DNA of 64,000 nt from Frigidibacter sp. SD6-1 (GTDB lineage: Bacteria; Pseudomonadota; Alphaproteobacteria; Rhodobacterales; Rhodobacteraceae): assembly GCF_030143255.1 (NCBI RefSeq), contig NZ_JARJNR010000004.1, positions 62,001-126,000 on the forward strand, given 5' to 3'. Positions 2,326-14,317 of the stretch are shown here, in pieces. The position numbers and the translations under genes were made by a program. Below the pieces are notes generated by a model. The model saw only the letters and a list, made by a program, of their open reading frames with translations. It was not told the origin of the DNA and did no database searches. The number at the start of each line of letters is the position of its first letter. Position 1 is the first letter of the stretch.

Positions 2326-3432
2326 ATGATGAAGGGGCAGGCACTCTGGGCCTTGGGCACCATGTCCGGGACCTCGCTCGACGGGGTCGATGCGGCCATG
2401 ATCCGGACCGACGGGCACGAGATATTCGAGTTCGGCACGACCGCCTACCGTCCCTATACCGACGCCGAACGCGCGACCCTGCGCGCCGCCCTCGGCCGCT
2501 GGCCGGGCGAGCCGGGGGTGGCCGAGGCGGCGGAAGTGGTTGAAACCGCGCATGCGGAGCTTCTCGCACGTTTCACCGGTGCCGATCTCGTGGGATTCCA
2601 CGGCCAGACGCTCGCCCATGACCCGGCCCGGCGCGGCACCCATCAGGCAGGCGAAGGCGCGCTGCTGGCCGAGGCTTTGGGCTTGCCGGTCGTCTGGGAT
2701 TTCCGCTCGGCCGACGTGGGCCTGGGCGGGCAGGGCGCGCCGCTTGCGCCCTTCTTCCACCATGCGCTCGCCCGCCTCACCGGCGCTGAAAGGCCTGTGG
2801 TCTTTCTCAACCTCGGCGGCGTCGGCAACGTGACCTGGGTTGATCCGTCCATCCCCGACCCCGACAAGCCGGGCGCCTGCGTCGCCTTCGACACCGGCCC
2901 CGCCAATGCGCCGATCAACGACTACATGCGCCTGCGGCTCGGAAAGGAACGCGACGAGGCGGGCGCGCTTGCGGCGAAGGGCAGGGTCGATGCCCGCATC
3001 GTCCGCACCTTCCTAACCCATCCCTATTTCCTGAAAGTCCCGCCGAAATCGCTCGACCGGAACGATTTTCACACGCTCCTGAAATCGGTTCGCACCCGCA
3101 CCATCCCGAACGCCGTCGCCACCCTCACGGCCTGCGCCGCCGCCGCCGTGGCGGCAGGCTTCTCCCAATTTCCAAGCCCGCCCGAGGCGGTCCTCGTCTC
3201 AGGCGGCGGGCGGCATAACAGAACACTGATGAAGATGCTGGCCGACCGGCTTCCCTGTCCGGTCAAGCCGGTCGAGGCGGCGGGTCTCAATGGCGACATG
3301 CTGGAAGCGCAGGCCTTCGCCTATCTCGCGGTCCGGGTTCTGAACGGCCTGCCGACCTCCTGCCCGGAAACCACCGGCGCCCGCATGGCGGTTGGCGGCG
3401 GCCAGGTCAGCCGCCCGACCGTGCCCGCCTGA
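2326..3432 (+). CDS. anmK: Anhydro-N-acetylmuramic acid kinase
   Basis: Phosphorylates and hydrolyses 1,6-anhydro-N-acetylmuramic acid to MurNAc-6-phosphate during cell-wall recycling. The 368-residue product begins with the diagnostic nucleotide-binding loop [14 protein letters not shown]. It also carries the family blocks [35 protein letters not shown] and LVSGGGRHN. Start ATG 2326 (or the adjacent ATG 2329) is preceded by GAGGAAAGG. It is divergent from tyrS, an arrangement I recall from several Rhodobacterales, and its 3' end overlaps the convergent rarD by 26 bases. Confidence 0.95.
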
Positions 3433-4342
3433 CGCCCGCCTGCCGGATCAGTGCCATCGAATAGATCGCCAAGGCCGCCCAGATCATCGGGAAAGCGATG
3501 GCCTTGCCCCGCCCGAACGGCTCGCCGAAGAGGAAGACGGCGGTCAGGAAGATCATCGTCGGCGCGATATATTGCATGATGCCGATGGTCGAGAGCCTCA
3601 AGAGTTTCGCGCCGTTGGCATAGACCATCAGCGGCACGGCGGTGACGAGCCCGCAGCCCGCCAGAAGCGCCGTATCGGTCCAGGCGCCGCCGAAAGCCAC
3701 CGGCGCGCCGGTCGCCGCCCGCCAGGCCAAATAGCCAAGCGCCAAGGGCAGAAGCAGGATCACCTCAAGCGCGAAACCCTGGTTGGGGCCGATCGGCAGC
3801 GATTTCTTGAAATAGGCATAGATCCCCCAGGTCAGCGTCAGGCTGAGCGCCACCAGAGGCAGCCGCCCGGCTTCCCAGGTCAGGACGCCGACTGCCAGTG
3901 TGGCCAGAAGGATCGCGAGTTTCTGCATCCCGTCCAGCCGCTCGCCCAGAAGGACGGCACCCAGGAAGACGCTGAACAAGGGGTTGATGTAATAGCCAAG
4001 GGCGGCGTCCAGCGCATGCCCGCTTTGGACCGCCCAGACATAGATGCCCCAGTTGATCGAAATGAACCCCGCCGTTACCGCCGCCATGCCAAGCATCCTC
4101 GGGGTCTTTAGCGCCGCCGTCAGATCCGCCGTCCGGCCAAGCCAGAGAAGGATCAGGAGCGCCACCGGCACCGACCAGATCACCCGATGCGCCAGAACCT
4201 CCAGCGTCGGGATATGGGCCATCGCCTTCATGTACAGGGGCAGGAAGCCCCAGAGCACATAGGCGGCCAGCGCGAACAAGAAGCCGCGCAGCGAATCCTC
4301 GTTCTGAGCCATGGGCTGTCGGCTTGCATTCGTCTCGGTCAT
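3407..4342 (-). CDS. rarD: RarD-type EamA-family transporter
   Basis: A 311-residue inner-membrane protein of the drug/metabolite transporter superfamily with about ten predicted hydrophobic helices. RarD-like blocks are visible: [14 protein letters not shown] near the N terminus, [32 protein letters not shown], and [11 protein letters not shown] with FLFGEPF near the C terminus. The substrate is unknown for the family in general, although RarD was first linked to chloramphenicol sensitivity. It converges on anmK. The bases upstream of its start lead within 60 bp into the IS3 fragment, so it marks the conserved edge of the accessory island. Confidence 0.88.
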
Positions 4343-4401
4343 GTCGGCGTCCTACGCCCCGTCGCACCCGGGCGCCACCCGGAACTTTGAGGTGCCCCTA
4401 G

Positions 4402-4731
4402 ATTTGTAGACGCTTTGCCCCCTACGGCTACCGCAAGCTCGCCGACGATCTGCGTGACCAAGGCGAGCACGTTTCGGAGAACCGGGTGGCACGGCTGGCA
4501 TCAATGGCCGGGATAGCCGCGCAGGTTGGCTACAAGCGCCGTCCCGGCCGCTATGGCGGTAAGCCCGCCGTCCTCGTGAACAACACCCTGGACCGGCAGT
4601 TTGAGGTCGATGCGCCCGACAGGGGCTGGGTGACCGACATCACCTACATCAAGACCCAGGAGAGCTGGTTGTATCTTTCGGTCGTGATCGATCTGTTCTC
4701 GCGACGCGTGGTCGGCTGGTCCGCCCAGCCG
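4402..4731 (+). mobile_element. IS3-family transposase (OrfB) internal fragment
   Basis: The frame encodes [38 protein letters not shown], then [12 protein letters not shown] and [14 protein letters not shown]. These are the HTH-to-DDE part of an IS3-group OrfB. The first two catalytic aspartates are present, in WVTD and VVID. An in-frame TAG at 4399-4401 precedes the fragment, and homology stops after GWSAQP near 4731, where the sequence switches to a hydantoinase gene on the other strand. About 110 of some 280 residues remain, without the final Glu region, OrfA or recognisable terminal repeats, so it is inactive. Confidence 0.85.
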
Positions 4732-4867
4732 CTTCGGAAATACCGACCGAAAGGTCGTATCTCGTCGTCAGAGCTTTCGCCTTTGCCACAAGGCCATGGT
4801 CTTCGCACCAGAGAACGGCATCCGTATATCTCCCGCCGGTATCGGTGCCGAGATAGAGCTGATCCAT
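4732..4867 (-). pseudogene. Hydantoinase/oxoprolinase N-terminal fragment
   Basis: Minus-strand frame starting at ATG 4867, 30 bases after the stop of the MttB-like gene. It encodes [28 protein letters not shown] and DLSVGISEA. This matches the start of HyuA/oxoprolinase-family proteins, whose ATP-dependent N-terminal domain begins with a GTDTGGT-type phosphate loop; Arg replaces the usual Thr after the second Gly. After about 46 residues it runs into the antisense of the IS3 fragment, so roughly 90 percent or more of the gene is missing. It was the last gene of the island operon before truncation. Confidence 0.75.
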
Positions 4868-4897
4868 GATGGGTGAGCTGCCCCTCGATCCGCCCTC

Positions 4898-6145
4898 TCA
4901 TACCGCAACTCTCCGGCGCAGGGCGGCCGCCACGTCGACATCCAGAGGTTTGGGCGGTGCGACGGGTTCGGTCCCCCGTCCGCACATCTCGCGGAGAGCC
5001 CTCTCGTCACGCTCGAACTTGCCAAACGATACGCATCGGCCCTGTTCAAGCCATCCGGCAGCATGGAGGATGAAGTCAGCGCCGGCAGCTATTGCTATCG
5101 ATGTTGCGCGGCCACCCTCGTAGCCGGCTTGCGCGTCGTCGATGTTCGCTGATGTCACTCCACCGTCGCCACGCGCGGGGATGCCGAGCCGTCTTGCCAG
5201 TTGTACCGAATAGATCTGCACGAGATCCGACACCGGATCGCCGAAGACGGGCACCATGGTCCGCATGGAGAATGGGATAGCGAAGAGACCGAAAACGACC
5301 GGGGTTCCCGGGTGCCAGAGCTGCGACAAAGCCAGTCCTGCAAGCGTCTCCGCGTAGCCCTGGATCAGGGCCCCTGCAACCGTTGTCGGCGCTGTCGCCC
5401 CCATCATCATGTAGGATGTCACCATCAGCCCCTGACGGCGCTTGGCGATAGCTCTGAGGCATTTCAGCGGGTTCGCCTTGTATGTTAGGGGCGGCGTTGC
5501 ATTGATCAAGTGCAATAGATCGCATTCGCCCTCGCTACTCCCCCGATCGATCGCCAGGCTCGCCATGTCGATAACCGCTTCAGCCGCCTCGGACGATGCA
5601 ACGCTGCCCATGAAGGGCTTGTCAGAGCACTCCAGGTGCGCGAGGGCCATTTGTATCGGCCTCTCCGGTTCGGGCAGCTCGTTCAACACGCAGATCATGT
5701 GCCCGGTGTTCGACAAGGCAGGAGATTGGTGCGCAAGAGCAACCAGCTCCCTGTAGTCGCGCAGCGCGCCCATGCTGCGCCGGCCATCGGCATACTGAAG
5801 GTTCGGTGCCCCGTAGATCGGCGCGAAGACTTGCGGAGCATGCTCGCCGATGATCGTGTCATGAACCGGGTTTCTGGCGCGAAGCCTGAAGGATTTCGGC
5901 GCCGAGGCACGGATCACGGAACGCAGCCAGGCACCGTCGAGGAAAACGCGATCCTCTTTGACCGACATGCCCTGTGACCGCCACATGTCCAGCGTTTCAG
6001 GATCACCTTCAAACCGGAGGCCGACTTCCTCAAGAATCCGGTCGGTACCACGCTCGATCTGATCCAGTTGAAGTGAGTCAACTGGCGAGAGATTGCAAAG
6101 CCGGCGGTCCTTTTGTGGCAGAGGCTGCATTGTTTCTTCACGCAT
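4898..6145 (-). CDS. MttB-family (trimethylamine methyltransferase-like) protein, shortened C-terminal region
   Basis: Member of the MttB superfamily, TIM-barrel enzymes that move methyl groups from quaternary or tertiary amines to a corrinoid protein. Visible blocks: RILEEVGLRFEGDPET, FAPIYGAPNLQ, DKPFMGSV, LINATPPLTY, MMMGATAPTTVAGAL, GTPVVFGLFAI and DAQAGYEGG. No in-frame TAG, so it belongs to the non-pyrrolysine majority. At 415 residues it is shorter than the roughly 480-520 I expect. After HAAGWLEQG it passes quickly to a PPKPLD tail, without the GPGGHFLG-type segment. No corrinoid protein gene is visible. The start may instead be ATG 6130; 6145 overlaps the preceding gene by 8 bases. 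Confidence 0.78.
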   Translation of the reverse strand: MREETMQPLPQKDRRLCNLSPVDSLQLDQIERGTDRILEEVGLRFEGDPETLDMWRSQGMSVKEDRVFLDGAWLRSVIRASAPKSFRLRARNPVHDTIIGEHAPQVFAPIYGAPNLQYADGRRSMGALRDYRELVALAHQSPALSNTGHMICVLNELPEPERPIQMALAHLECSDKPFMGSVASSEAAEAVIDMASLAIDRGSSEGECDLLHLINATPPLTYKANPLKCLRAIAKRRQGLMVTSYMMMGATAPTTVAGALIQGYAETLAGLALSQLWHPGTPVVFGLFAIPFSMRTMVPVFGDPVSDLVQIYSVQLARRLGIPARGDGGVTSANIDDAQAGYEGGRATSIAIAAGADFILHAAGWLEQGRCVSFGKFERDERALREMCGRGTEPVAPPKPLDVDVAAALRRRVAV

Positions 6146-6941
6146 CGCGAGAAAAAGCCCACACGATCAAGGCATCGTAATACGGATCGCTCGCGATGCC
6201 GACAGTCTGGCACGAGAGCTTGGCAAGGCCCGCTCGTTGGGCGCACCTCTCGGACAGCTCGCATCCGAGATAGCGGTTGTCATGCTCTTCCTTCTCGATG
6301 AAGGCTGCGCTGCGGATCCAGTCGGCACCGACCAACCTGCCGCCTGGCTCAAGCCTTGCTGCTGCGGCCAAGAAGGCTTCTTCATATCTGTGGGAGTCCG
6401 CTGCCAGGCCGAAACAGCCAATGGCCGTAATCAGGTCGAAACCTGACCTTCCCTCTGGCAGAGCCCATGGTTTTAGGCAATCCATGACGTGGAAGTCCCA
6501 TTTCAGAGATCGGATCGCGCTTAAATCGTCTTCCGTCTTTCCCGTGATCTCCAGCCCATCCTTGTAGCATTGCGGCAATTCCGATCCATCCTTGAACAGA
6601 GACAGGACGTGCAATGCCTCCGGCACCAGATCGCAGGCAGCAACAGCTTGTGGCGCGTTGACACCTGTCGCCCAGAATAGAGTTGTGACACCAGCTCCTA
6701 GGTCAATCCAGTTCCTGGGCGTTCCTCCCAGTTCCTTGAGGGCTTGCAATATCTCCTCCACCCCCTGTCCGGGGATTAGGCATTCGTTGAAATATCGCTG
6801 CCGATAGTCCTCAAAATAGGCGATATGGTCTGCGCTGAAAGATGTCGTGGGAATATCGTCCAAGCGACGGTACGAACGGTCAAGGCTACCGTCTTTTTCC
6901 TTCAGCCACCCGCCGATTGCTTCAACCCGGCCCTCAGCCAT
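6138..6941 (-). CDS. Class I SAM-dependent methyltransferase, NNMT/PNMT/TEMT-like
   Basis: A 267-residue Rossmann-fold methyltransferase. The SAM-binding motif I is WIDLGAGVTT at residues 78-87. It is followed by an acidic motif II in ACDLVPEALHVL, then a long insertion with conserved aromatic and charged residues, and later FDLITAIGCFGLAA and GGRLVGADWI. The N-terminal SYRR and YFEDYRQRYF region and the spacing resemble the nicotinamide/phenylethanolamine/thioether N- and S-methyltransferase group, so an amine substrate is plausible but not proven. It overlaps the MFS gene upstream and the MttB gene downstream by 8 bases each, implying translational coupling. Confidence 0.75.
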   Translation of the reverse strand: MAEGRVEAIGGWLKEKDGSLDRSYRRLDDIPTTSFSADHIAYFEDYRQRYFNECLIPGQGVEEILQALKELGGTPRNWIDLGAGVTTLFWATGVNAPQAVAACDLVPEALHVLSLFKDGSELPQCYKDGLEITGKTEDDLSAIRSLKWDFHVMDCLKPWALPEGRSGFDLITAIGCFGLAADSHRYEEAFLAAAARLEPGGRLVGADWIRSAAFIEKEEHDNRYLGCELSERCAQRAGLAKLSCQTVGIASDPYYDALIVWAFSRDA

Positions 6942-8172
6942 TGGCGGGGACCGCTTCGCCGAAAGCGCGCTGCTCGCTCGGCATTAACATACTCAGCACG
7001 GCCGAGGCGACCGCCGCGCCCAGCATGACCATGTAGATCGGCTCGAACGATCCCGATGATACCTTGAGCGCGCCGCCCAGAATATTCCCTACGATCCCGC
7101 CCAGGCCGAGCGCAATATTCCCGAAAGCGAAAACCAAAGCCGCGCTGCCCTGCCCGAAGACATGGCTGATATAGGCCGGAACCAAGCCGAAGATTGCATA
7201 GAATGTGATCCCGAACGTCACCGCAGCGATGTAGAGAAATTCATAGCTGGCCCCTCCTGTCGCGTTGAGGAGAAGCGCACAGGAACCAGCGAGTACCGCA
7301 TAGGTGAGGATCATCGCGATCCGGACCGTGATCCGATCCGCGAGCCAGCCAACGGCAAAACCGCTCACCATCCCGACAACGCCGATGATGCGCCACATAT
7401 GGGCGGCTGTCTCGGCAGAATATCCCGCTTCGGCTTGAAGGAATGCAGAGAGATAGGTCTGGTAGGGCATGCAGGAAAGCCCGTTCAGGAACATCATGAA
7501 CAGGATCGCGGCGGTCAGCGCCTTGGGCAGCGCCTTCACGCGGGAGGCCACGGATACGCGTTCCGTCAAGGCGTCCTTGGCCGTTTCGCCCTTCGCACTC
7601 CGCAGACGCAACATTGCAACCAGGGCGAGCAATCCCACAAGAACGCCCGTCGCCAGCCAGAGAGACCGCCATCCCTGTTGCGGCAATAGGGTAGTCAGAA
7701 GGAAGCTGTTGATGAACACCCCATAGCTGGTCCCCGACGACATGAGACCAAGTGCCTTGCCCTGATGTTCCTTCGAGATGTGGTCTCTTGCGACTTCGAC
7801 CATCGGAACCCAGATCGCCGCGGCGGCACCGCCGAGGACCGTCAGGCAGATCGCCATCGCGATGATGTTGGGCGCAACAGCCAGCCCAAGAAGACCTATC
7901 GCACAAAGCGAGATCGAACCCAGGATCATCGGCATCGCACCGAACCGCACGGTCAGAAAGCCTGCGAGCAGGGCGCAGATCATGAAGCCTGCCTGAACGA
8001 AGCCGGAGATCGTCCCCATCGTTCCGTAGGAAAATGGAATGTCGAGGCGAACAGATTCGACCATCGCCGGGAACAGATACATCCCGAAGCCGTATGTAGC
8101 GGCGATGAAGGCGGTGAAAAGCAGCGTCGTCTCAACGCTTTTGCGGCTGCCTGATGACATGGTGTTTCCCAT
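6934..8172 (-). CDS. MFS transporter
   Basis: A 412-residue major facilitator superfamily membrane protein with about twelve hydrophobic segments. The loop after helix 2 (GFLTVRFGAM) and the equivalent loop in the second half (GWLADRITVRIAM) are the two half-repeats of the MFS signature. Substrate and direction cannot be read from the sequence. Its place inside a biosynthesis-like operon between two methyltransferase genes suggests export of the product (inference). The start ATG overlaps the TAA of the preceding methyltransferase by one base (TAATG), and its end overlaps the next gene by 8 bases. Confidence 0.85.
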   Translation of the reverse strand: MGNTMSSGSRKSVETTLLFTAFIAATYGFGMYLFPAMVESVRLDIPFSYGTMGTISGFVQAGFMICALLAGFLTVRFGAMPMILGSISLCAIGLLGLAVAPNIIAMAICLTVLGGAAAAIWVPMVEVARDHISKEHQGKALGLMSSGTSYGVFINSFLLTTLLPQQGWRSLWLATGVLVGLLALVAMLRLRSAKGETAKDALTERVSVASRVKALPKALTAAILFMMFLNGLSCMPYQTYLSAFLQAEAGYSAETAAHMWRIIGVVGMVSGFAVGWLADRITVRIAMILTYAVLAGSCALLLNATGGASYEFLYIAAVTFGITFYAIFGLVPAYISHVFGQGSAALVFAFGNIALGLGGIVGNILGGALKVSSGSFEPIYMVMLGAAVASAVLSMLMPSEQRAFGEAVPANG

Positions 8173-8957
8173 TACGAAAGCGAGTTTGATTTCCGATACA
8201 TTGCGAGCAGGCGTGGCGATAGATCTGAAACTGGCGAGCCATCATAGTCGCCACAGACAGATTCAAGCGTCATCCCATCGGGAGTGGCCGGGCCGAACCA
8301 GCCGGGGTCGTAGCGATAGAGGCGCATTTCCGAGCGCCAGCTCTCCACCCCATGAAGTTTGTCTTTAATTTCATAGGCGAGCCGCAGCAGGATTGATGCG
8401 TCATCCTGGCGCTGCGCCGACTGACGGGTCAACCTGGAGCCATCAGGCAGGTCTCGGGTCCAATCCACGCCCCAGGCATCATCTTCACGGGACGCATTGA
8501 AATAGTCGGGATCAGCCGCGGCTGGTCCTGGCCCGGCGCGAAATGTCGCGACATCAACGAACAGCAATCCACCCTCGACCAAATGCGCCGAAACTGCTGC
8601 AAGGGCCTCCATTCCTTCAGATGGTGGCAGAAGCTGGAGCGCTTCGCGCGGGATGATCGCCAGGTCGACACTTCTGCCAAGGTCGAGTGTCCGCATGTTC
8701 TGGACTTCGGTGTGGATGTGGATAGAGCCATTTGATGCTCTTGCCGCGACGGCCGCCTTTGCGACCATCGCAGGCTCCAGGTCCACCAAAGTCAGTTCCG
8801 CGGCTTTTCGCGCAATCCTTCCCGACAAGCGACCGGCCCCGCAAGGCACTTCAAGCACCCTGAGCCCGCCAGCGCCGAGGAGCGTGTCGACAAACGCGAA
8901 GTCCCGTTCCTCGACATACTCGACCTCATAGACTTTGGCGCGATCACTATACGGCAT
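8172..8957 (-). CDS. Class I SAM-dependent methyltransferase
   Basis: A 261-residue protein with a methyltransf_25-like core: motif I LEVPCGAGRLSG at about residues 35-46, acidic residue in TLVDLEPAM, and the late strand LVEGGLLFVDVATF. The C-terminal half (SWRSEMRLYRYDP, then MTLESVCGDYDGSPV) matches the tail of small-molecule methyltransferases of this type. The substrate is unknown. ATG 8957 (MPYSDRAKVYE) is preferred; an in-frame start at 8969 adds four residues. Either start overlaps the 3' end of the upstream dehydrogenase-like gene, indicating one operon. Confidence 0.8.
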   Translation of the reverse strand: MPYSDRAKVYEVEYVEERDFAFVDTLLGAGGLRVLEVPCGAGRLSGRIARKAAELTLVDLEPAMVAKAAVAARASNGSIHIHTEVQNMRTLDLGRSVDLAIIPREALQLLPPSEGMEALAAVSAHLVEGGLLFVDVATFRAGPGPAAADPDYFNASREDDAWGVDWTRDLPDGSRLTRQSAQRQDDASILLRLAYEIKDKLHGVESWRSEMRLYRYDPGWFGPATPDGMTLESVCGDYDGSPVSDLSPRLLAMYRKSNSLS

Positions 8958-10065
8958 CCGCCAGACCACCTTCCATCATGGCGACATGGCGCAGCACTTC
9001 CGGATGAACGATACTGCCCCCGGAAACGACACAGCCATTCTTCGATGTGGTGTCTTTTTGGCCCTCGCAGGCCGCGCGCGCCAACCCGAGAAGGTAGCGC
9101 CAGACATTCGCGCTGGTGGCTCTCGCCGCGGTCAGCGGGACCGACGCCGGCATGGCGTCGATCTTGCAGTGCAGGACACCGTGACGCTCATAGAACGGCG
9201 CGTCATAGGTGGTCAGATTGGTGAAGCTCGGCATGTAGCCTTTGCCATAGCCGCAGGTGACATCAACGATGACCGAACCGGGCTTCATCCTGGCAACCAG
9301 ATCGTCGCTCAGCATGACCGGAGTGTCGTAGGTCGAGATCAGAATAGCGCCGACGACCACATCCGCCTCGAGCACTGCTGCCTCAAGGGCGGCGGGCGTG
9401 TTGAGCAGGCATCGGACATTGGCGGGCATTCCTGCCATGAAACGGCGCAACCCTTCCCAACGCGTTCCGAAGACGGTCACGTCGGCGCCCATCGCAGCGG
9501 CAAGCCGTGCCGCACCGCCGCCCGCATTCCCGTATCCGATGACAACGACCTTCGGCCGCGCCGCCCCCGGCACATCTGCGAGCAAGGTGCCACTACCGCC
9601 CATGTGGCTCTGGAGATGATAGGCAGCCAGCAGGATCGCGAGCTTGCCGGAAATCTCGTTGTCGGAAACAGGCACCGGATACTCCCCGGCGTCGTTGCGG
9701 AAAAATTCCAGCGCATAGGCCGACATCCCGCTTGCCCGCATCGCCTCAACCAGTGAAAGGTTCCCTTCGGCGTGCATGAAGCTCGCAAGGTGCATACCGG
9801 GACGGAAGCGCCGATATTCGTCAGGCCCAGGTGCCTTGTATTTGAAGATCACATCGCTGCCGGTCCATGCACCGTCACAGTCGACGATTTCCGCGCCAGC
9901 ATCGGCGTAGGTAGCGTCGGGGAAGCCCGCCAGAAGACCGGCATCATGCTCGACAAGAACGCGATAGCCGTTGGCGGTAAACTGTCGAACAGCCTCGGGA
10001 AGCAGGATGACCCGCTTCTCCCCGCTCCGTCGTTCCTTCAGGATCGAAATACTTTTGCCGGCCAT
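8947..10065 (-). CDS. Alanine dehydrogenase / N5-(carboxyethyl)ornithine synthase-like NAD(P)-dependent enzyme
   Basis: A 372-residue AlaDh_PNT-fold protein. Arg18 (EKRVILLPE), Lys77 (KYKAP) and His98 (SFMHAE) line up with the substrate-binding Arg, Lys and His of alanine dehydrogenase. The Rossmann motif is VVVIGYGNAGGGAARLAA. Where alanine dehydrogenases have an IDQGG segment with a catalytic Asp, this protein has VDVTCGYGKGYMPSF. The following TTYDAPFYERHGVLHCKIDAMPAS block resembles carboxyethylornithine synthase, which reductively condenses pyruvate with ornithine. I therefore favour an opine-forming activity over plain alanine dehydrogenase; this comparison is from memory. It sits second in the operon, 116 bases after speD. 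Confidence 0.65.
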   Translation of the reverse strand: MAGKSISILKERRSGEKRVILLPEAVRQFTANGYRVLVEHDAGLLAGFPDATYADAGAEIVDCDGAWTGSDVIFKYKAPGPDEYRRFRPGMHLASFMHAEGNLSLVEAMRASGMSAYALEFFRNDAGEYPVPVSDNEISGKLAILLAAYHLQSHMGGSGTLLADVPGAARPKVVVIGYGNAGGGAARLAAAMGADVTVFGTRWEGLRRFMAGMPANVRCLLNTPAALEAAVLEADVVVGAILISTYDTPVMLSDDLVARMKPGSVIVDVTCGYGKGYMPSFTNLTTYDAPFYERHGVLHCKIDAMPASVPLTAARATSANVWRYLLGLARAACEGQKDTTSKNGCVVSGGSIVHPEVLRHVAMMEGGLADAV

Positions 10066-10181
10066 AGTGACGCCCCCCGGAAGTGTTCGGTTAAGTTTGT
10101 GTCAGTCGGTGCGAAGGCTCGCTTGAAAGAAGAAACAGCGAGGTGCAGTCCGGCATTTCGTTGATGCCGGAGATGCCCTCT

Positions 10182-10556
10182 CTAGGCATGCGCCATCTCG
10201 CCCCGAGCAATCTCCCTGACTTCGGCCCGGCTAGGCAGGAATGCCTTTCTAAGGTGGTCGATCGCCTTGTGCGGGTCTGCCTTGCCGCAGACGAACACAT
10301 CGATCGCCGCATAACCGATTTCCGGCCAGGAGTGGATGGACAGATGGGATTCTGCGAGCATGACCACCCCGGTCACGCCCATCCCTTCGCCAAAATGATG
10401 GACATTCACGCCCAAAACCGTGGCACCCGCCAAACGGGAAGCATCGACGATGGCGTCCTCGACTTTCTCGGGATTTTCGATATTCACGCAGCCCCAGAAC
10501 TCGGCCAAAATATGGCGGCCCAGTCCGGGCGCAGCGGCTAACAGCAAGTCTTCCAT
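10182..10556 (-). CDS. speD: SpeD-type S-adenosylmethionine decarboxylase proenzyme
   Basis: A 124-residue class 1b (Bacillus/Thermotoga size) pyruvoyl decarboxylase. The self-cleavage site is Glu69-Ser70 within LAESHLSIHSWPE, where Ser70 would become the pyruvoyl group. The processing and catalytic residues His75 and Cys90 (DVFVCG) are present at the family spacing. The canonical product, decarboxylated AdoMet, is the aminopropyl donor for spermidine synthase, but no speE lies nearby. Some SpeD relatives have become ornithine or arginine decarboxylases, so the substrate is uncertain. Start ATG 10556 is preceded by a GGGGG stretch; a TTG at 10589 would add 11 residues. First gene of the island operon. 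Confidence 0.85.
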   Translation of the reverse strand: MEDLLLAAAPGLGRHILAEFWGCVNIENPEKVEDAIVDASRLAGATVLGVNVHHFGEGMGVTGVVMLAESHLSIHSWPEIGYAAIDVFVCGKADPHKAIDHLRKAFLPSRAEVREIARGEMAHA

Positions 10557-10600
10557 GCAATGCCCCCGTCCATAAGAAGGTAGTACCAATCTCTCTTCTC

Positions 10601-10629
10601 GGTTGCATTTCTAACTATCTTCTGCAACC
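10601..10629. promoter_or_regulatory. Inverted repeat upstream of the speD-led operon
   Basis: GGTTGCA at 10601-10607 is repeated exactly as TGCAACC at 10623-10629 around a 15-base AT-rich centre, about 45 bases upstream of the speD start. A 29-bp dyad at this place is a candidate operator for the island operon, or a leader hairpin. No regulator gene is present within the island. I see no convincing -35/-10 pair next to it. Confidence 0.4.
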
Positions 10630-10748
10630 TAAGATGCAAAAATGCGCCCCGTGAAGTTCTGGATACGACACGCTGCTCCGCTGCTGTGTTCGCTCTTCTG
10701 TGTGGATTCTCGCAGAACCGCCTTTGCATACTGATGTCGTCAGGGCGG

Positions 10749-10960
10749 TCACATTGGCAACCAGCGACAGATCTTCGGTCGGGTCGCCGTCAACCAGCAG
10801 CAAGTCGGCGCAAGCCCCGGCCCGGACCAGACCCAAAGCACCGGCATAGGGCTTGCGTGGCCCGGACAGGTCGAGAACTGTCGCATTCATCGACGTCGCC
10901 TGGCGCAGGGCCTTGGCTGGCGTATACCATCGCCGCAGACCAGCCAGGTTCCTACCCTGC
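10749..10960 (-). pseudogene. Amidohydrolase C-terminal remnant
   Basis: Within a long minus-strand frame, only this part looks like protein-coding sequence. It encodes RWYTPAKALRQATSMN, then LDLSGPRKPYAGALGL and GACADLLLVDGDPTEDLSLVAN. This is the C-terminal signature of metal-dependent amidohydrolases, where the chain folds back into the beta-sandwich domain. The frame loses similarity before the expected MKDG end block and has no metal-binding N-terminal half, so it is a relic. Together with the next entry it marks a decayed region at the right edge of the island. Confidence 0.65.
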
Positions 10961-11106
10961 TGTTCGGCCATATCCTCGCCAGCCCCGATCAGGAGGTGCG
11001 GCAAGACGCTTTCGGCGCCATTCTCGCCCCTGCCTCGGCGAGCCATCAGTCCGACCGCACCGAACGTGCGACGGAAAGCCCGGGCGATCTCGCTCGTGCC
11101 ACGCTC

Positions 11107-11364
11107 GCTAGCCTTGCCCGTCTCTTGCCCGGTCAGAACTTCCGGCCCGCCGCCATCCTCCATGCCGACCGTCCGGTCTCCGGCGACGGCCTGCCCGCTG
11201 TGGGCCCGGCCACCGCGCGTCCCGGCCTCGCGCTTGCCGTCCTGCATTCCGGGGTCACGCTCGCGCCCCTCGTCGCCTCGGGCCTCGCGGATGAACTGAC
11301 AGGGCAGGGAAACCATGCGCTCCTCGCGCCCTTCCGGCCCGCAAGGCTCCTCAGCCCGCTCTGA
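11107..11364 (+). pseudogene. FAD-dependent amino acid oxidase (DAO family) C-terminal remnant
   Basis: The plus-strand frame encodes ARLLPG, then DGLPAVGPATARPGLALAV, LHSGVTLAPLVASGLADEL and ALLAPFRPARL. These are the C-terminal FAD-binding signature and end of DadA/glycine-oxidase-like flavoproteins (the HSGVTL motif contacts the flavin). About 300 upstream residues, including the GxGxxG dinucleotide site, are absent; the DNA upstream instead holds the antisense amidohydrolase remnant. The stop overlaps the end of the TSUP gene by 14 bases. Confidence 0.65.
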
Positions 11365-12082
11365 GGATCAGAAGGAACCCGCCCAGAAGCACCGCGCCAT
11401 CGAGAAGGCGCAAATGCCATGTCCCGGGCAGAAGATGGGCCAGCCGCCTGGCGAGGAAGGTAGCGGGCACCGCCGCCGCGCCGATCATCAGCGCGAGCCC
11501 TGCAAGGCGCAGATCAAGCGCGCCGCGCGCGGCGAACATCCCCGACTTGCTGATGCCCAGAAGGAAGGAAATCGCCGCATCCGTGGCAATGACCTGCGGC
11601 CCCGTCAGCCCCGCCGCCATGAGGAGCGTCAGAAGCATCACCCCCGACCCCGACGTGCCGCCATTCACCACGCCGTATCCGAACGAAGCCGCCGTCAGCC
11701 CGCGCCCGGTCAGAACCAGCCCCCGCCGCCGTGCGAGCGTTCTGAGCGGCACCAGAAGGATCAGCATCGCGCCGATCAGGATTGCCGCGCCCCGCCCGGA
11801 CAGAAGCGTGAAGCCATAGGCACCAAGAAGCGTCGCGGGCAGCGCGACCGGCGCGATCCGCCTCAGCCGGTCGATATCAAGGTCCGGCCGGTAGGCCGCG
11901 ACGCGGCTTGCGTTGGTGAAAAGGGCCGAGAGGCCGATGACCGGCACCACCGCCTCGGCCCCGATCAGCGGCACGAGGACCGGCGGCAGCAGAAGCCCGG
12001 TCCCATAGCCGGTCACCCCGCCGACAAGCGCCGCGAAAAACGCCGCCCCGCCGATCAGGAGGAGATCGGCGAAAGGCAGCAC
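11351..12082 (-). CDS. TauE/SafE (TSUP) family transporter
   Basis: A 243-residue membrane protein with about eight hydrophobic segments in two repeats. The TSUP half-repeat signatures are visible: GGAAFFAALVGGVTGYGTGLLLPPVL near the N terminus and FGYGVVNGGTSGSGVMLLTLLM in the middle. Family members move sulfite, sulfoacetate, taurine-derived anions or other organic acids; the substrate here cannot be read. The gene lies 5 bases downstream of eno on the same strand and may be cotranscribed with it. Confidence 0.85.
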   Translation of the reverse strand: MLPFADLLLIGGAAFFAALVGGVTGYGTGLLLPPVLVPLIGAEAVVPVIGLSALFTNASRVAAYRPDLDIDRLRRIAPVALPATLLGAYGFTLLSGRGAAILIGAMLILLVPLRTLARRRGLVLTGRGLTAASFGYGVVNGGTSGSGVMLLTLLMAAGLTGPQVIATDAAISFLLGISKSGMFAARGALDLRLAGLALMIGAAAVPATFLARRLAHLLPGTWHLRLLDGAVLLGGFLLILRAG

Positions 12083-12087
12083 CGGCC

Positions 12088-13404
<1,317 letters not shown>

Positions 13405-13435
13405 TTACGCCCTCATCCGCGCAAGGAAAAGGCCC

Positions 13436-14317
13436 TCAGGCCGCGGCGGCAACCTGTTTTCGCGCCCGCTCGCGCAGATAGGTGTAGAAGGCAGCGGCAA
13501 GGATCAGCGCCGCGCCGCAAAGCGTCAGCCCGTCGGGCCGCTCGGCGAAGAAAAGAACGCCGATCGCCAGCGAGAAGATCAGCCGCGCATAGCGGAAGGG
13601 CATCAGCGCCGAGGCTTCCGCCGCCCGCATCGAGGCGACGATGGCCAGATATCCGGTCGTCGCGCAGAAAAGCGTCAGGACCAGAAGCGCCATGCCCGAA
13701 CCGTCCGGCATCGCCGGGCGCTGGCCCGCCGCGATCAGGACCAGCCCGGCCACGACGACGCCGAGGAAGCCGTGAAACGACACGACCGCCGACGACAGGC
13801 TCGCCGGTATCGCGCGCGTCACCAGATCGCGCAGCGCGATCGAGAAGACCGTGATCAGCACCAGCCCGGCTTCCGGCCGGAAGCCTTCCAGCCCCGGACG
13901 GATGATCATCAGGACCCCCGCGAACCCGACCGCGACCGCCGTCCAGCGCCGCCAGCCAACGGTTTCGCCGAGGAAGAGCGCTGCCCCCGCCGTAACGGCC
14001 AGAGGCGTCGCCTGAAAGACCGCCGCGACGGTCGACAGAGGGATCAGCGACAGGGCGGTGACGAAGGTGATGGCCGACACCGCCTCTGCCGCCGTGCGCC
14101 AGAAGACCGGCCGGTTGCGAAGCGCGGCCCAGAGGCCCCGGCGCCCGTGCGGACCGGCCAGCGCCGCGAAGGCCGCCATGCCGCCAAGCCCGATGATGAT
14201 CAAAAGCTGCCCGACCGGCATCGCGGCGGACAGATGCTTCATCAGCGCATCCTCGACGGCGAAGATCGCCATCGAATAGAGCACAAGCAGGATGCCGCGA
14301 AGGTTGCCGTCCGACAT
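13436..14317 (-). CDS. EamA-family (DMT) transporter
   Basis: A 293-residue membrane protein with ten predicted helices in two EamA repeats. The ends of each half are recognisable: AVFQATPLAVTAGAALFLGETVGWRRW in the first and ALMPFRYARLIFSLAIGVLFFAERPDG in the second. Members export amino acids, nucleotides or other metabolites, but the substrate is not predictable. It sits between fur and eno on the same strand, 11 bases downstream of fur, so it may be read from the fur promoter. Confidence 0.85.
   Translation of the reverse strand: MSDGNLRGILLVLYSMAIFAVEDALMKHLSAAMPVGQLLIIIGLGGMAAFAALAGPHGRRGLWAALRNRPVFWRTAAEAVSAITFVTALSLIPLSTVAAVFQATPLAVTAGAALFLGETVGWRRWTAVAVGFAGVLMIIRPGLEGFRPEAGLVLITVFSIALRDLVTRAIPASLSSAVVSFHGFLGVVVAGLVLIAAGQRPAMPDGSGMALLVLTLFCATTGYLAIVASMRAAEASALMPFRYARLIFSLAIGVLFFAERPDGLTLCGAALILAAAFYTYLRERARKQVAAAA

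Follow-up and report, generated by a model that had tools for sequence, protein, structure and literature searches.

A transferred bacterial gene cluster that may build a secreted small molecule from decarboxylated AdoMet

A 64,000-nucleotide stretch of the genome of Frigidibacter sp. SD6-1 (contig NZ_JARJNR010000004.1, positions 62,001 to 126,000; hereafter the window, in whose coordinates positions are given) carries a minus-strand gene cluster that encodes, in order, a SpeD-type pyruvoyl enzyme, a dehydrogenase (DH), a protein with a methyltransferase fold (MT1), an MFS transporter, a second methyltransferase-fold protein (MT2) and an MttB-like protein, followed by the start of a hydantoinase-A gene that enters an IS3 remnant. 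The available data make it fairly probable that this cluster is an operon that arrived by transfer and makes a secreted small molecule with decarboxylated S-adenosylmethionine (decarboxylated AdoMet). An earlier note on this DNA had read the genes as an opine-like or modified-polyamine pathway in the manner of opine metallophores. The conserved and moved cluster, the decarboxylated AdoMet and a dehydrogenase out of the ordinary all survive from that reading, and the metallophore is not supported.

Recurrence of the cluster in other genomes

A collection of contigs that represents 84,980 species by one genome each was scanned with short exact peptides of DH, an approach that can miss more distant relatives. 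Ten loci were recovered, in eight of which DH is immediately preceded by SpeD and followed by MT1; the other two (L012 and L013), remote matches of 28-29% without other cluster genes, were dropped. Together with the window and an extra relative, G1251, detected in a sample of 343 genomes from the L009 genus, SpeD-DH-MT1 is present in ten clusters (the window, L004-L011 and G1251), and eight of the ten also have MT2. Three clusters lie in Streptomyces (L009/L028, L010/L027 and G1251), and the other six loci belong to Proteobacteria by record title. Co-occurrence in other genomes, on which the earlier note had staked its proposal, is thus observed for a gene order that has moved horizontally, and because this order recurs, the arrangement goes beyond chance.

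Around the core, the composition varies. Among the eight loci L004-L011, MT2 is present in six (L004, L005, L007, L009, L010 and L011), an adjacent MFS gene in six (L004-L008 and L011) and an MttB homologue in four (L004, L005, L007 and L011); L006 stops at a contig edge after its MFS gene. In L011, a metagenome bin, DH and MT1 are either broken or wrongly assembled (L011:1812-2730), while SpeD, MFS, MT2 and MttB read open. Leaving L011 out, the DH relatives are 56-80% identical to the DH of the window. The identity matrices of SpeD, DH, MT1 and MT2 correlate with one another (r 0.79-0.99; for each pair, between 0 and 3 of 2000 permutations reached the observed value), a correlation for which kinship of the hosts can account in part.

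The cluster is rare. In overlapping samples of genomes, DH was detected in one of 244 genomes of the order and one of 385 of the class, both times in the window's own genome, and MT2 in one of 398 genomes of the phylum, again the genome itself. Similarly, of the 343 genomes from the L009 genus three have DH (two known and the new G1251), and single positives, in each case the genome already known, came from 246 genomes of the phylum of L009 and from 179 genomes of the order to which G962 belongs. Protein searches of a plasmid collection found no cluster. Specifically, MT2 had zero matches there, and DH matched 316 records, all below 60% identity (top match 36.6%; highest 37.7% among the matches listed). 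An MFS relative in this collection (66%, Roseateles sp. XES5) adjoins a LysR gene and stands without other cluster genes.

SpeD and the proposed supply of decarboxylated AdoMet

The first gene product has the sequence features of an AdoMet decarboxylase. SpeD of the window scores 122.9 bits against a TIGR03330 cut-off of 75.65, and its best match in the PDB is the AdoMet decarboxylase of T. maritima (2.4e-26). Nine of nine SpeD sequences keep the signature ESHxSxHxWPE...C, with the pyruvoyl Ser and the His and Cys known from T. maritima, and the SpeD of L011, which is outside this set, aligns alike. At the same time, PF01564, the spermidine-synthase family, is unmatched in four of eight cluster-bearing genomes, among them the window's own; several of these eight are draft or metagenome assemblies, and the genome of L008 lies outside the set.

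The three Streptomyces clusters offer a second line of evidence. In all of them, MT2 is followed on the same strand by genes for a Rieske oxygenase, MtnB, acireductone dioxygenase, MtnC, an aminotransferase, methylthioadenosine (MTA) phosphorylase and MetK. Further genes past MetK are one resembling TetR (by eye), one for an MFS protein, one for a BTAD/SARP-type regulator (matched by a model in L027, named by eye in L009 and G1251) and MtnA; in L009/L028 the regulator and MtnA are on the opposite strand. MtnA is fused to an adenine phosphoribosyltransferase in three of three (L027:3927-5441, L028:13143-14669 and L026:4204-5718), and this fusion, as read from sequence, joins both arms of MTA salvage in a single protein. 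NCBIfam models recognise most of these proteins above their cut-offs. For L009, L010 and G1251, respectively, the scores are 162, 162 and 164 bits for MtnB (cut-off 137), 388, 377 and 377 for MTA phosphorylase (306), 559, 539 and 550 for MetK (309), 374, 375 and 376 for MtnA (279) and 185, 178 and 183 for the fused adenine phosphoribosyltransferase (125). MtnC reaches 216 bits in L009 and 214 in L010 (cut-off 128) and in G1251 is recognised by sequence alone; acireductone dioxygenase matches PF03079 in all three. As such, the methionine-salvage set (MtnP, A, B, C and D plus aminotransferase) is found in three of three Streptomyces clusters, and by their predicted functions these genes form a full cycle that returns MTA to AdoMet, which makes sense if the pathway spends AdoMet-derived propyl units in quantity.

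The SpeD signature, the MTA loop of Streptomyces and the lack of a PF01564 match in half of the scanned genomes together point to a dedicated supply of decarboxylated AdoMet, and the earlier proposal that SpeD makes this compound is supported accordingly by the TIGR03330 score, the invariant signature and the salvage genes. These data also bear on the idea that SpeD has been turned into a pyruvoyl decarboxylase for ornithine or arginine, in which case DH would N-carboxyalkylate a diamine and MT1 and MT2 would methylate it. A SpeD without SpeE was the starting clue to such decarboxylases in Li et al. 2023 (PMC10407285), and the four genomes without PF01564 fit that pattern; the genomes described in that paper, however, lacked canonical ornithine and arginine decarboxylases, whereas the window's genome has two PF02784 decarboxylases, a hint and no more. 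Since the signature is of the AdoMet decarboxylase type in nine of nine sequences, the TIGR03330 score is above cut-off, and MTA salvage with MetK would be pointless in Streptomyces, repurposing appears unlikely. Of these two, the one that is not the strongest PF02784 match, a pyridoxal-phosphate decarboxylase that no model names (L045:521-1687, G000:C32; 107 bits against a LysA cut-off of 297.9), is possibly the ornithine decarboxylase of this genome.

Candidate enzymes, proposed pathway and alternatives

DH belongs to a distinct branch of its family, as judged by its sequence, and the possibility raised by the earlier note that it might prove an ordinary alanine dehydrogenase is not borne out. 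It scores 261.2 bits with TIGR00518 (alanine dehydrogenase), under the cut-off of 391.85. Set against the catalytic Arg, Lys, His and Asp270 of alanine dehydrogenase, R18, K77 and H98 are invariant and the Asp is replaced by Gly272 in nine of nine sequences. Condensation of the opine type is plausible for such a protein, in that the fold family and the kept Arg, Lys and His residues allow it. N5-carboxyethylornithine synthase, a member of the alanine dehydrogenase/saccharopine dehydrogenase superfamily that carries out reductive N-carboxyalkylation, may resemble DH in superfamily and chemistry. No record of that name appears among the DH plasmid matches listed (the best 30 and 60 of 316).

Both methyltransferase-fold proteins were modelled with AlphaFold (mean pLDDT 87.9 for MT1 and 87.8 for MT2, whose five models span 64.1-87.8). 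In Foldseek and PDB-profile comparisons, MT1 resembles small-molecule methyltransferases, including the amine and sugar N-methyltransferases CalS10, CypM and TylM1, as well as C-methyltransferases and the bacillithiol methyltransferase NmbA. The 50 Foldseek matches listed for MT2 are all NNMT chains or 3rod (titled Methyltransferase), with TM scores of about 0.57-0.69, and its best PDB profile match is also NNMT (E 0.0089). Aminopropyl transfer by an enzyme of the cluster is probable, and MT1 is most likely that enzyme; it was chosen as the candidate because no cluster is without it, not even L008, where MT2 is missing, although the copy in L011 is broken.

A different fate of decarboxylated AdoMet would be internal cyclisation. 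Here, MT1 or MT2 would close the compound itself, or a form modified by DH, to an azetidine and release MTA in the manner of AzeJ or VioH. AZE synthases are described in PMC11794875 as methyltransferase-fold enzymes that release MTA. If DH made a secondary amine, this could serve well as the nucleophile within the molecule. Nevertheless, the two motifs of AZE synthases, PFNxxGN and RxxYYxxC, are absent from all 16 sequences (nine MT1 and seven MT2), and AzeJ is missing from the PDB profile matches listed (25 of 25 for MT2, the best 60 of 182 for MT1), which leaves this route quite improbable.

The late steps are suggested by a replacement between the two groups of bacteria. The MttB-like protein of the window is short; its PF06253 match spans model positions 17-395 of 500, with about 100 C-terminal positions missing, and no corrinoid gene accompanies it in the cluster. 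In Streptomyces, a GbcA-like Rieske protein (214/670 bits) takes the place of MttB after MT2. MttB and GbcA families act on quaternary amines elsewhere, and their exchange suggests, no more, a shared late demethylation. These two families could also mark a catabolic quaternary-amine operon with MttB as a demethylase, unrelated neighbours and DH as a plain alanine dehydrogenase, and the best MttB relative in the plasmid collection, 67% identical and encoded on Sinorhizobium meliloti pSymB (L015:8702-11185), does adjoin an FAD oxidoreductase and a LysR gene, not cluster genes. However, the SpeD-DH-MT1 core occurs without MttB in L008 and in Streptomyces, DH scores under the alanine dehydrogenase cut-off with the catalytic Asp lost, and the short MttB has no corrinoid partner in the cluster, so that catabolism has very little to recommend it. 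Among the MttB plasmid matches, 46 of 195 records are 60-80% identical, and the 15 listed are all from S. meliloti. Another GbcA-like Rieske protein, near L007, is only 30% identical to the Streptomyces protein and was not counted as a member.

The preferred reading, production of a secreted compound from decarboxylated AdoMet, can be arranged as a pathway of five steps. SpeD would first decarboxylate AdoMet, a step well supported by sequence. A methyltransferase-fold protein, most likely MT1, would then pass the aminopropyl group to an amine with release of MTA; the Streptomyces salvage genes back this step, and we infer the enzyme. DH would join an alpha-keto acid in opine fashion to an amine of the resulting compound or of the precursor of that compound, as the family and kept residues of DH suggest. 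Subsequently, MT2 may N-methylate the compound, and MttB-like proteins in Proteobacteria or GbcA-like Rieske proteins in Streptomyces may trim N-methyl groups or otherwise act on a quaternary amine. Finally, the MFS protein would export the product. Enzymes encoded in the Streptomyces clusters would recycle MTA to AdoMet.

Several observations weigh against this pathway. Neither MT1 nor MT2 of the window matches the PF01564 aminopropyltransferase family at E 0.001, and given their ordinary methyltransferase fold, MTA could arise otherwise. MT2 is absent at the locus of L008 (Ferruginivarius). In the other four of the eight scanned genomes, PF01564 is matched, once weakly, and SpeD might also feed polyamines there; among the four genomes free of PF01564, completeness is stated for the window's alone (100%), and metagenome bins make up at least two of them. 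The Streptomyces aminotransferase is recognised by Pfam or sequence and passes no specific model, and no salvage genes were recognised by eye at the proteobacterial loci. The window's genome has an MTAP-like match below cut-off only (49.8 against 274.85 bits), a miss that carries little weight because the model passes its cut-off in only four of 14 control genomes.

Known systems share parts of this logic. According to PMC10491745, a methyltransferase-fold enzyme of microcin C biosynthesis (MccD/MccE) gives a propyl group derived from S-adenosylmethionine (SAM) and releases MTA, enhanced by a nucleosidase, and a Bacillus version of microcin C that uses decarboxylated AdoMet is known here from a reference title (PMC13381572). 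The cluster would be alike in the transfer of a propyl group to a specialised metabolite by this fold with MTA release; microcin C biosynthesis uses a pyridoxal-phosphate decarboxylase, whereas the cluster has a dedicated SpeD plus the alanine dehydrogenase-type DH, MT2 and MttB. No microcin-type gene was recognised by eye, and no dedicated search for one was made. Spermidine synthesis (SpeD/SpeE) shares SpeD and presumably MTA release, but the cluster is without a SpeE-family protein and adds a dehydrogenase, methyltransferase-fold enzymes and a transporter.

Opine-like zincophores such as staphylopine and pseudopaline bear on the metallophore of the earlier note. The proposed pathway is like theirs, as set out in PMC7438024, in propyl transfer from SAM or a derivative, condensation with a keto acid by a dehydrogenase and efflux, and it differs in the enzyme families at both steps; the cluster would use a decarboxylated donor and no common importer was seen. 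A true opine metallophore pathway would require decarboxylated AdoMet to replace AdoMet and the alanine dehydrogenase-type DH to replace CntM. ABC importer genes do lie near three loci, about 1.1 kb past MttB in L005 (branched-chain/sugar type), on the other strand in L011 and about 7 kb off in L008. These importers are not alike, however, and none common to the clusters was seen, other neighbours being read by eye. Furthermore, the cluster proteins of the window have no Pfam match to NAS or staphylopine-dehydrogenase families, no TonB receptor was recognised by eye among the cluster neighbours, and a crude exact scan of nine loci revealed no common palindrome upstream of SpeD (none in five, differing ones in L007-L010). 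The chance of a metallophore therefore seems slight.

Decarboxylated AdoMet is generally regarded as a precursor of polyamines, microcin C being an exception. A cluster that spans phyla, carries a SpeD of its own and, in Streptomyces, regenerates AdoMet would show that bacteria build other secreted compounds from it as well. The reading of the earlier note is partly supported by these data. More tentatively, and with the balance leaning against it as a whole, the clusters may define undescribed secreted metabolites made from decarboxylated AdoMet by a methyltransferase-fold aminopropyltransferase and an opine-type N-carboxyalkylating relative of alanine dehydrogenase, with MttB-like proteins in Proteobacteria and GbcA-like Rieske proteins in Streptomyces standing in for each other late in the pathway. 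No published description of the cluster was found in the open-licence PMC literature, subscription papers being mostly outside that search. Gene-cluster finders keyed on cores of the polyketide, peptide or terpene kind are likely to overlook such a cluster, and DH, MT1 and MT2 offer three enzymes whose chemistry is directly testable in vitro.

Operon layout, island site and neighbouring genes

The features of the window are collected in Table 1. The earlier note had described a minus-strand operon of seven genes with overlaps of 1 to 11 bases. The named genes are present, as six intact genes and one fragment, and the overlaps hold for the four junctions from DH to MttB if MT1 uses an inner ATG. 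Specifically, DH and MT1 overlap by 23 bases with the first GTG of MT1 and by 11 with the inner ATG, which agrees with the start in relatives; MT1/MFS overlap by one base, and MFS/MT2 and MT2/MttB by eight each. SpeD is separated from DH by a gap of 116 bases. The truncated hydantoinase, also counted to the operon, is seen as a cut PF05378 start, but a 46-residue query had zero matches across L004-L013, and the fragment is therefore not a member of the conserved cluster.

Table 1 Features of the island and its right-hand border in window coordinates
Feature	Position	Strand	Evidence
Island of foreign DNA, flanked by rarD and a tauE-like gene	4388..10967		Alignment to G211, GC and GC3
IS3-family transposase remnant	4486..4869	+	NF033516 3.2e-23, PF00665 3.1e-10
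Hydantoinase-A/oxoprolinase 5' fragment	4718..4867	-	PF05378 1.2e-7
MttB-like protein, short	4898..6145	-	PF06253 4.6e-100
MT2, NNMT-like class I methyltransferase fold	6138..6941	-	Structure model, Foldseek, PDB profile
MFS transporter, probable exporter	6934..8172	-	PF07690 4.3e-41
MT1, class I methyltransferase fold, candidate aminopropyltransferase	8172..8969	-	PF13649 2e-12
DH, diverged AlaDH/PNT-family dehydrogenase	8947..10065	-	PF01262, PF05222 (AlaDh_PNT N and C domains)
SpeD, pyruvoyl enzyme of AdoMet-decarboxylase type	10182..10589	-	PF02675 4.3e-35
DAO-type FAD oxidoreductase, C-terminal remnant, outside the island	10996..11364	+	PF01266 0.00035, below gathering score

The borders of the island emerge from a comparison with a single genome of the same genus, G211, which alone among four other same-genus genomes has the tauE-like neighbour; this gene has no match in the three further ones. 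Where the island stands, G211 carries 1.29 kb of other DNA. A blastn comparison of window positions 3001-14000 with the G211 stretch (L034) gives two collinear pieces of 86.7% and 87.6% identity, and the similarity ends at position 4387 and restarts at 10968. In G211, the flanks hold an anmK-like gene and rarD on one side and the tauE-like gene and enolase on the other, with proteins 88-97% identical. The base composition agrees with foreign origin. The GC content is 0.600 in the island against 0.651 in the window, and GC at third codon positions (GC3) is 0.63-0.74 in the six cluster genes against 0.82-0.86 in six flanking genes. The transfer that had been read from IS3, gene remnants and lower GC is supported by this alignment and by GC and GC3, and the island is real; its extent, given before as 4402-11364, needs correction, as its right end (10967) falls inside that range.

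The 1.29 kb of G211 consists of a small gene (141 amino acids) and the front part of an FAD oxidoreductase gene, and G211 has a longer plus-strand open reading frame (ORF) for this oxidoreductase there, ending at L034:11536. As judged from these sequences, the island cut a gene for a DAO-type FAD oxidoreductase and left its tail at the right border. The reading frame at 10615-11316 is probably spurious, because residues 1-133 of its translation correspond to the antisense strand of the G211 oxidoreductase gene.

Further genes were encountered near the clusters and elsewhere in the genome. The window's genome has one B12-binding_2 match (G000:C33:144202-144414, L016), which adjoins a DUF1638-like gene (by eye) and which we take to be possibly part of a split methionine synthase. 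Just beyond the cluster of L004, a second, longer MttB-like gene (L004:15067-17724; 516 amino acids) adjoins a GcvT-like gene with a LysR-like gene nearby (names by eye). About 3 kb beyond the Ferruginivarius cluster lies a gene for a histidine-specific methyltransferase (L008:16708-17637; PF10017, 287 bits).

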